In this document: one piece after another, positions 53,454 to 55,484 of the stretch
How the letters are laid out: each line of letters begins with the position of its first letter
Position numbering within the stretch: position 1 is the stretch's first letter
NCBI RefSeq assembly: GCF_004364285.1
Contig: NZ_SOBE01000002.1
Span: forward strand, 558,001-622,000
Direction of reading: 5' to 3'
Length of the DNA stretch: 64,000 bases
Source of the DNA: Frigoribacterium sp. PhB116
GTDB taxonomy: Bacteria > Actinomycetota > Actinomycetes > Actinomycetales > Microbacteriaceae
Program-made: the position numbers and the translations under genes
The notes under the pieces: model-generated
The model's database searches: none
What the model was told of the DNA's origin: nothing
Seen by the model: only the letters and a program-made list of their open reading frames with translations

Positions 53454-53525
53454 TCCGCCATGGTGTAACGGCAGCACGACAGCCTTTGGAGCTGTTAGGT
53501 CCAGGTTCGAATCCTGGTGGCGGAG
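53454..53525 (+). tRNA. tRNA-Gln (anticodon TTG)
   Basis: 72 nt. The acceptor stem is TCCGCCA / TGGCGGA with discriminator G; CCA is not encoded. The anticodon stem ACAGC / GCTGT encloses the 7-base loop CTTTGGA, giving anticodon TTG for CAA. The T arm is CCAGG-TTCGAAT-CCTGG. The last 14 bases of the gene plus five more are repeated at 54895-54913. Confidence 0.95.
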
Positions 53526-53770
53526 CCGACTTCCTCAACGATGCCGTTGCGCGACAGCTCAGTGGCCGGTTCCTGGCACGATCTGGCTTCGCCTGCGCTC
53601 ACGTTCGGGCCCGGGTCGATATCGCAGCGCTGGCCCTCGCTCACCGGTTCATCACGCCAGGGTGAGGTGTGCCGGGGGCGGCGCCTTCGCCGCCACCTGA
53701 CTTGGCCGGCCCGTCCCTGGTGCATCGTCGGCGATCAGGCATCGACCTGAGCCATCTCGGCAGAAATCGT

Positions 53771-53795
53771 TATAGGTAGCGTTTAGCTATCTATA
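53771..53795. promoter_or_regulatory. 25-bp imperfect dyad overlapping the promoter of the insert genes
   Basis: TATAGGTAGC (53771-53780) and GCTATCTATA (53786-53795) are inverted with a single mismatch around GTTTA. The A+T-rich dyad lies immediately before ATG 53799 and contains -10-like hexamers. A regulator binding here would control the two-gene unit. No obvious DNA-binding protein is encoded inside the insert. Confidence 0.6.
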
Positions 53796-53798
53796 GTA

Positions 53799-54290
53799 AT
53801 GCGAGGACGACGAGCGACGGGACGACAGTTGATGGAAGAAGTGAAAGTGCTGGTTTCACCGGATCGGTTGACGGATTTCTACCGATGGTTCGCAGATTGG
53901 AGCGATGGACGCCTGAGCGAGAGGGGCGCTTCGGGTCCTGGGCAAGGCGAGGTCTCTCCGGACAGCGAGAAGGACGTCTTCCTCGCTGCCGTCGAGTTCT
54001 GGAAGCTCCTCCGTCCCAAGGAGCGTGAGATCTGGAACATGTGGATTGTCGCCGCCCCTCGGATGGTCGCCGCGGACGAGATCGTGAGCGAGCTGAGTCT
54101 CGCCAATGCCCGTGAGATCCCCGGCGCGTTGTCATGGTCATCGCGAAAGGGACGGAAGGTCGGGTTCGTGGCGTCGTGGCGATTCAGATCGGATCCTCAG
54201 ACGGGTCGTCCCGTGTACGGGATCGAAGATGTGACCTACGCCGAAGTCCTCGGTCGAGCTCGGGACGCTGTCGAGGGCGGCCTCCGATGA
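53799..54290 (+). CDS. unknown protein of the tRNA-Gln insert, possibly DUF6416-like
   Basis: 163 aa from ATG 53799; ATG 53832 is an alternative that would leave room for a short leader. Residues about 70-160 (FWKLLRPKEREIWNMWI, AAPRMVAADEIVSELSL, RKGRKVGFVASWRF) resemble the winged-helix-like core I associate with DUF6416 proteins in mobile regions of actinobacteria. The match is weak and from memory. No catalytic motif or membrane segment is seen. The stop overlaps the next start (ATGA), so the two proteins are made together. Codon choice is less GC-biased than in core genes. Confidence 0.65.
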   Translation: MRGRRATGRQLMEEVKVLVSPDRLTDFYRWFADWSDGRLSERGASGPGQGEVSPDSEKDVFLAAVEFWKLLRPKEREIWNMWIVAAPRMVAADEIVSELSLANAREIPGALSWSSRKGRKVGFVASWRFRSDPQTGRPVYGIEDVTYAEVLGRARDAVEGGLR

Positions 54291-54844
54291 CGCCCCAGGG
54301 GCAGGGTCGGTTCCAGCGGCTCGAGTCGCTGGCAGAAGTCTTCCGTGTCCTGCGCATGCCTGTGGAGAACAGGCGAACGGTGGAGGCGTACACGGCCGCG
54401 ATCGGCATCGACCATTACGAGCAGACCACGGGATACGTCATCGCGTCCCGACAGGACGGCGGGCCGCAGATCAGGATCGCCTACGGTTGGGCGAACGGCT
54501 TTCGAGACCGCGAGGAGATCGAAGCCATCGTCGGTACTCAGCTCTCGACTTGGGGCAGCGATGACCGCTCTCCGTTGTGGGGTCTCTGGCACCCGAAGAA
54601 TCGTGCCCGTACGAGCCCCGGATCCAGCAAGACACCCAAGAGGCGGACGAAAGATCGCAGGGTGGCCGGTCGGGATGTCGCCAAGCAGCTGGCTGTCCGC
54701 GGTTCACTCGGCTGCTACGGGCCAGGCACCCTAGGGGCACCGTGTGATGAGCCAGCGACGGGTGTCGCGAACAGCCTCGACTTGTGTCAGCGCCATCTGG
54801 TCTCCGTCCGGCTTCAGGAACGGACCGCCGCTCTCCTGGAGTGA
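54287..54844 (+). CDS. unknown protein of the tRNA-Gln insert with C-terminal Cys/His cluster
   Basis: 185 aa. ATG 54287 overlaps the preceding stop. The N-terminal 90 residues (RFQRLESLAEVFRVL, HYEQTTGYVIASRQDGG, WANGFRDREEIEAIV) are not assigned to a family. A basic linker (residues about 105-140) follows. The last 45 residues carry cysteines in LGCYGPGTLGAPCDEP and LDLCQRHL, which could form a small zinc site (C...C...CxxH). Such a knuckle would suit nucleic-acid binding, but this is inference. No homology to integrases, nucleases or known toxins is seen. Confidence 0.65.
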   Translation: MTPQGQGRFQRLESLAEVFRVLRMPVENRRTVEAYTAAIGIDHYEQTTGYVIASRQDGGPQIRIAYGWANGFRDREEIEAIVGTQLSTWGSDDRSPLWGLWHPKNRARTSPGSSKTPKRRTKDRRVAGRDVAKQLAVRGSLGCYGPGTLGAPCDEPATGVANSLDLCQRHLVSVRLQERTAALLE

Positions 54845-54977
54845 CGAAAGGCGACGATTCCGCGAGCAAAGACACTCCGGGGCGCGTCCGCCCGTCCTGG
54901 TGGCGGAGCTGACGAGCTGAGAGCCGACGGAGGCGTCCGTCCGGCGCCCGATCCGGACCGGCGGCCTCGGCTCTCGA

Positions 54978-54989: not shown

Positions 54990-55484
54990 ATGTCGACCAC
55001 CACGCTCTCCCCGCTCGCCCGTGCCGCCCTGCTCGGCGTCCTCACCGGCTCCCGCTCGGCGACGCCCCTCGCGGCCCTGGCCCTCAGCCGCGACAGTCGC
55101 ACCCTCACCGGCAGCTGGCAGGAGTGGGCGGTGGTCCGCTCGTCGATCGGCCGTGCCGTGTTCGTCGCCGCCGGCGCGGGCGAGCTCGTCGGGGACAAGC
55201 TGCCCTCGACGCCCAGCCGCATCTCGGGCGGCGCGATCTTCGGACGCGTCGCCGCCGGTGCCGTCGTCGGCTTCGCGATGGGCACCACCGACCTCCGCGC
55301 CGACCGCGGCGTGCAAGGCGCGCTGATCGGCGCCGCGGGGGCCGTCGTCGGCAGCTTCGCGGGCTACCTGGGCCGCAAGGCGCTCGTCGAGAAGACCGGG
55401 CTCCCCGACCTCGTCGTCGCCCTGCTCGAGGACGCCGTCGCGGTCGGCGGCACCGCCGCCGTCGTGCGCGCCGCCCGCAGCTGA
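54990..55484 (+). CDS. DUF4126-like small membrane protein
   Basis: 164 aa. Glycine- and alanine-rich hydrophobic helices (about residues 8-28, 52-66, 80-96, 108-128 and 142-160) carry the pattern LARAALLGVLTGSRSATPLA, GELVGDKLPSTPSRI and GRVAAGAVVGFAMG. These are typical of the DUF4126 family, whose function is unknown. It restarts normal GC content right after the second copy of the tRNA repeat and has its own leaderless promoter. Confidence 0.8.
   Translation: MSTTTLSPLARAALLGVLTGSRSATPLAALALSRDSRTLTGSWQEWAVVRSSIGRAVFVAAGAGELVGDKLPSTPSRISGGAIFGRVAAGAVVGFAMGTTDLRADRGVQGALIGAAGAVVGSFAGYLGRKALVEKTGLPDLVVALLEDAVAVGGTAAVVRAARS

Follow-up and report, generated by a model that had tools for sequence, protein, structure and literature searches.

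CIMEs are decayed ICEs or IMEs that have kept their att sites, in the definition excerpted from PMC5704250. Additive flexible genomic islands of Methylopumilus range from 330 bp to 42 kb with 1 to 63 genes, and repeats of the final 20 nt of a tRNA-Lys gene precede them (PMC10872708, in the section drawn on here). CALINs are integron cassette arrays without an integrase, for which the recombinase is supplied elsewhere (PMC11389934, in extract), and a further group of islands is integrated in the 5' end of dusA (PMC4482086, in extract).

We studied a small insert beside a tRNA-Gln gene in a 64-kb stretch of DNA, which was analysed as a whole and is called the window. Like a CIME, as defined in that excerpt, the insert has attL/attR-like repeats at a tRNA gene and is without integrase and transfer genes. 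Unlike a CIME, it comprises only two genes (P1 and P2) within 1.4 kb, the search of it for traces of an ICE or IME was negative, and a related gene pair occurs in a second compact insert at another site. The tRNA-end repeats are shared with the Methylopumilus islands, but those islands have a variable number of repeats in the section consulted, whereas the insert is one unit with two repeat copies, and a pair related to P1-P2 also occurs at a non-tRNA site. It resembles CALINs, as outlined in the extract, in being a small unit that would need a recombinase from elsewhere, but its boundary is a tRNA end. The second insert, in genome G314, lies at an HhH-GPD gene and recalls the dusA islands, since in both the 5' end of a protein-coding gene is targeted; the dusA islands of the extract carry an integrase, whereas the G314 insert holds the P1-P2 pair only. 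As in tRNA-targeted elements, the repeat stands at both borders of the tRNA-Gln insert and relatives have a precise empty site, while an integrase of its own was not recognised inside. A literature search combining Microbacteriaceae, integrative element, tRNA and attachment site found nothing, and we claim no wider absence from it.

The features of the locus are as follows.

53454..53527, forward strand: tRNA-Gln (TTG), target of the integration, left intact (ARAGORN; Rfam tRNA, 64.7 bits)
53512..53530, forward strand: proximal att-like repeat copy, spanning the final 16 nt of the tRNA and the next 3 nt
53531..53770, no strand: left spacer of the insert, without a recognisable gene remnant (weak matches only)
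53771..53795, no strand: AT-rich dyad of 25 nt, 5' of P1, TATAGGTAGC-N5-GCTATCTATA
53832..54290, forward strand: P1, open reading frame of 152 aa, winged-helix-like, with a weak DUF6416 match
54287..54844, forward strand: P2, 185 aa, a core of ~105 aa common to relatives plus a Cys/His-containing tail
54895..54913, forward strand: distal att-like repeat copy, after which the native downstream flank begins
54990..55484, forward strand: DUF4126-like gene, the first native gene downstream (26.9 bits; Pfam cut-off 27.5)

The tRNA-Gln(TTG) gene is the single tRNA gene in the window. The two repeat copies are identical at 18 of 19 positions, with one mismatch, and the first 15 nt are identical; they are spaced 1,383 bp from start to start and enclose 1,364 bp (1.36 kb). 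The GC content of the insert is 0.641, compared to 0.692 and 0.726 in the flanks. P1 and P2 overlap by ATGA, and an upstream ATG at 53799 is a possible alternative start of P1. The preliminary description had reported this tRNA-Gln repeat around lower-GC DNA with two overlapping genes and a dyad, all of which was confirmed. Its further statement that nothing inside could catalyse integration holds within the family libraries searched: neither P1 nor P2 matched a recombinase in Pfam, PHROGs, NCBIfam or PADLOC.

The repeat is rare. With up to 3 mismatches allowed, the 19-nt sequence occurs at just two places in the window, compared to a mean of 0.09 places in 100 shuffles, one of which reached two places. 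The exact 15-mer has two copies in its own genome and one in each of the seven congeneric genomes included in that search. By row count it is multi-copy in 7 of 339 genomes, its own among them; a reversed control pattern was present in 9 of the 339. We estimate the chance of a second same-strand copy within 1.4 kb to be of order 1e-5.

Presence and absence of the insert were compared among 16 genomes of the genus, one per species and its own included. The tRNA-Gln gene is present in all 16, and P1 and P2 each occur in one, its own. In 11 of the 15 congeners the site is empty: the next gene, within ~110 nt of the tRNA, is the DUF4126-like one (10 genomes) or glmU (one genome), and the joined flanks of the window align with all three empty sites that were compared. 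The remaining four congeners (G011, G014, G007 and G002) have other DNA at the site. Given the aligned empty sites and the other DNA in these four genomes, the insertion at tRNA-Gln is real and the site is variable. The preliminary description had read the repeat as a signature of site-specific integration, a reading set against the case in which all relatives carry the two genes and none has an empty site. Since no congener carries either gene and 11 show an empty site, the comparison supports site-specific integration. Presumably the P1-P2 segment was acquired once the lineage had separated from its nearest sampled relatives.

The four other occupants of the site differ from the insert. In G011, 1,553 bp separate the tRNA-Gln gene from a degenerate tRNA-Gln copy of near-full length (70 nt, 93% identical), which could also be a decayed tandem tRNA gene. 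This DNA holds a single membrane-protein-like ORF of 404 aa without a Pfam match at E 0.01 (L032:248-1890), and no recombinase was seen among its ORFs. G014, G007 and G002 have 3.7, 0.6 and 1.1 kb at the site, respectively, where a search for the 12-nt tRNA end gave no further exact copy. At the G014 site (L029:451-4019), three divergent lipoprotein-like ORFs stand in tandem behind an ORF of 636 aa, an arrangement that resembles a secreted toxin and its duplicated immunity genes; pieces of this type are also present in G007 (L030) and G002 (L031).

Both proteins are poorly covered by family libraries. P1 and P2 had no NCBIfam or PADLOC model match at E 1, and in Pfam and PHROGs only matches of E 0.035 or worse. 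The structure model of P1 (pLDDT 82) has a helix-helix-helix-strand-strand order that would fit a winged helix; among solved structures, a search for fold relatives returned antibody matches only, at E 0.3 or worse. In the P1 alignment, three of seven members weakly match DUF6416 (Pfam PF19980; best E 8.5e-4), which is the likeness to that family; P1 itself differs from it in scoring 14.2 bits, under the curated cut-off of 27.1, and is not assigned to it. A literature search on DUF6416 found nothing, a result confined to that search.

The dyad is a possible autoregulatory operator. The 7-mer TATCTAT is common to the upstream DNA of the three closest P1 genes, including that of the window; as this degree of 7-mer sharing was reached in 20 of 500 shuffles, it gives a weak hint of P1 autoregulation.

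For P2, an alignment was made of 21 members, comprising four that are paired with P1 and 17 of 19 others. In 18 of the 21, the protein ends in a CxxC-type zinc-ribbon motif. The best Pfam match of the alignment has an E of 0.028, and one of the 21 members matches an unnamed PHROG at E 9.5e-4. The structure model is weak (pLDDT 63), and no related structure was found among solved ones. P2 falls in a family for which none of the searched libraries gave a good match.

We followed nine P1 loci: the window; G314 and G324, from 398 genomes of the family, where six further weak matches (E 8e-4 to 9e-3) were left out; Curtobacterium flaccumfaciens and Microbacterium sp. ASV49, from named genomes; G566 and G765, from 396 genomes of the order; and G1034 and G1046, from 394 genomes of the class. 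Five of the nine are close relatives, and P2 adjoins P1 in four of these five. In ASV49 the neighbour of P1 is a different Cys/His-rich gene, whose end resembles that of P2 (pairwise E 0.004). The four distant loci have flanking-repeat scores of at most 11, and no P2 was found alongside them.

In G314, the insert that holds the P1-P2 pair measures 1,168 bp and stands between 99-nt direct repeats of the 5' end of the HhH-GPD gene, which are 79% identical overall and identical at 37 of the first 38 nt. The genus of G314 provided eight relatives, of which five were examined and the remaining three matched by short stretches only; in the five, the UvrA-like and HhH genes adjoin without an insert. 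Such an arrangement is what integration into a gene's 5' end gives when the element's own copy replaces that end. The ASV49 unit lies between ssb and a decayed, internal ssb copy, beside a TraG-like gene. We considered it as a third att case and downgraded it, as the second copy is an internal, frameshifted piece of ssb; the case is ambiguous, since a decayed tandem gene would give the same picture. No flanking repeat was found at the P1-P2 loci of G324 and Curtobacterium.

When all loci were scored alike, flanking repeats reached 16, 35 and 71 at three of the five close P1 loci, and none of the 19 P2-only loci reached 13. Of 4,000 units taken at random from a pool in which these same loci are included, 3.6% scored at least 16 and 1.0% at least 30. 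The spacers of the three inserts have no clear common terminal sequence or motif. The repeat at tRNA-Gln has a sequence unlike that at the HhH gene, so one helper specificity would not serve both, and two integration specificities are probably involved.

The recombinase was also sought outside the insert. A search of the genome for two families returned two tyrosine recombinases (PF00589) and one large serine recombinase (PF07508). One PF00589 protein is encoded beside a ParA-like gene and the other after a DprA-like gene; we take them to be XerD and XerC, respectively. A resident helper from these two families was rejected, as the PF00589 proteins look like XerC/XerD and the serine recombinase has no evident link to the insert. 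An autonomous element at tRNA-Gln was also looked for, by same-strand spacing, in the six other genomes with multiple copies of the 15-mer, and none was found; G235 alone of the six has two same-strand copies within 30 kb, the extra one lying inside a gene and not at a tRNA. Because none was recognised inside the insert, and the candidates of the genome are Xer-like or without a link, the catalyst was probably supplied from elsewhere. The large serine recombinase gene lies ~72 kb downstream of the tRNA-Gln insert (L148:916-2337).

We consider a minimal, att-bounded, CIME-like two-gene unit that depends on a helper recombinase acting in trans to be the best explanation, with a probability of roughly 0.5. 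Site-specific recombination would have inserted the segment 53531-54913 into the tRNA-Gln gene at its 3' end, a step supported by the repeat and the empty sites; this would leave the tRNA intact and duplicate its end at the opposite border of the segment. The sole recognisable cargo would be the translationally coupled P1-P2 pair. The recombinase would come from outside the element, most likely as a tyrosine integrase encoded by a phage or an integrative element now absent from the genome. P1 would probably bind the dyad ahead of its gene and repress the pair, and P2 would be the effector of a putative defence-linked or toxin-antitoxin-like module.

The strongest alternative is that a larger, integrase-bearing element once occupied the tRNA-Gln site, and that an internal deletion spared only P1 and P2, perhaps kept as an addictive or protective pair. 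We regard this as almost as likely as the helper-dependent unit. It agrees with the definition of CIMEs in the excerpt of PMC5704250, as elements without integration and transfer genes in which attL and attR are kept. The flanks are 89-93% identical to those of the two nearest empty-site relatives (G015 and G012), which leaves time for decay, and the different site in G314 is what separate elements with a shared cargo would give. Yet the left spacer has no significant integrase or other phage-gene trace: its seven open frames gave PHROG matches only at E 0.067 or worse, one of them to an HNH endonuclease (E 0.092). The whole insert is also without a DNA match in the phage and plasmid collections, and the 1,168- and 1,383-bp inserts would each have lost all but the same two genes and both repeats. 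The compact insert of G314, with its related pair at an unrelated site, leans towards the helper-dependent unit without settling the matter, because decay of two different elements with the same cargo would look alike. Hence, we slightly prefer a helper-dependent mini-element over the stump of a larger one.

A more specialised arrangement, a very small integrase parasite of 1.2-1.4 kb that borrows different integrases at different att sites, seems unlikely to us; in it, P1 would serve in recruitment or directionality in addition to repression, and the spread of the unit would be paid for by a defence function of P2.

Less likely still, and in our view improbable, is insertion without any site-specific recombinase, in which short stretches of identity at gene ends let a small DNA circle or a transformed fragment recombine, leaving Campbell-type repeats. 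The differing repeat lengths (19, 99 and ~300 nt) would suit such a process, as would the absence of a recognised recombinase inside and the long, decayed and internal ssb repeat of ASV49. Against it, unbroken identity in the window repeat extends over only 15 nt and the repeat sits precisely at the 3' end of the tRNA, a usual target of integrases, and the identity of the G314 repeat is high in the 38-nt core only. Finally, a variable intergenic spot with a chance repeat would match the three congeners that have other DNA here and no second exact 12-nt tRNA end, and two loose matches did arise in 1 of 100 shuffles, but the repeat is rare and the far flank matches the empty site, which makes coincidence hardly credible.

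If the helper-dependent units are mobile, they would explain some of the strain-specific content of one or two genes beside tRNA genes, would easily be missed, being so small and integrase-less, and would flag new defence-like gene pairs. If the insert is a remnant, an undescribed gene pair was kept while the rest of its element was lost.

The two P1-P2 loci without repeats both adjoin defence-like genes, which suggests a defence-linked role. In G324 the neighbours are a Mutator-family transposase, a DpdE-like helicase and an HmaC-like ATPase (L034:8402-17037), a possible defence island; in Curtobacterium they are restriction-, methyltransferase- and UvrD-like genes. Five of six neighbours tested matched PADLOC models, a raw count to be read without a background rate for random genes. 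None of seven proteins (P1, P2 and relatives) matched a PADLOC model at E up to 1. The pair resembles toxin-antitoxin operons in having two small overlapping genes, the first DNA-binding-like, and an upstream dyad, but neither protein was matched by a toxin or antitoxin family. Taken together, the neighbouring genes and the operon form suggest that P1-P2 may be defence-linked or toxin-antitoxin-like. P2 relatives occur at 25 places in 23 of the 398 family genomes, of which three are paired with P1 and 22 have no detected P1, as judged from the P1 search of the family genomes; 19 of these 22 were opened, three weak ones being excepted. That most P2 relatives lack a detected P1 weakens a strict toxin-antitoxin reading. 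At one of the family loci (G035), the gene 5' of P2 appeared P1-like by eye and showed no similarity to P1 on comparison.

No relatives of P1 were found on plasmids. P1 and the Curtobacterium P2 found no relatives as queries against phages, and pattern-based scans of viral contigs confirmed none of either protein. Relatives of P2 are present on three Curtobacterium plasmids, and Pfam gave no real match for the genes that precede P2 on two plasmids. On a Curtobacterium megaplasmid, a member of the P2 family (L154:3956-4357) lies near an ImmA/IrrE-type gene, and a second plasmid gene of the family (L156) lies near an ArdC-like gene.
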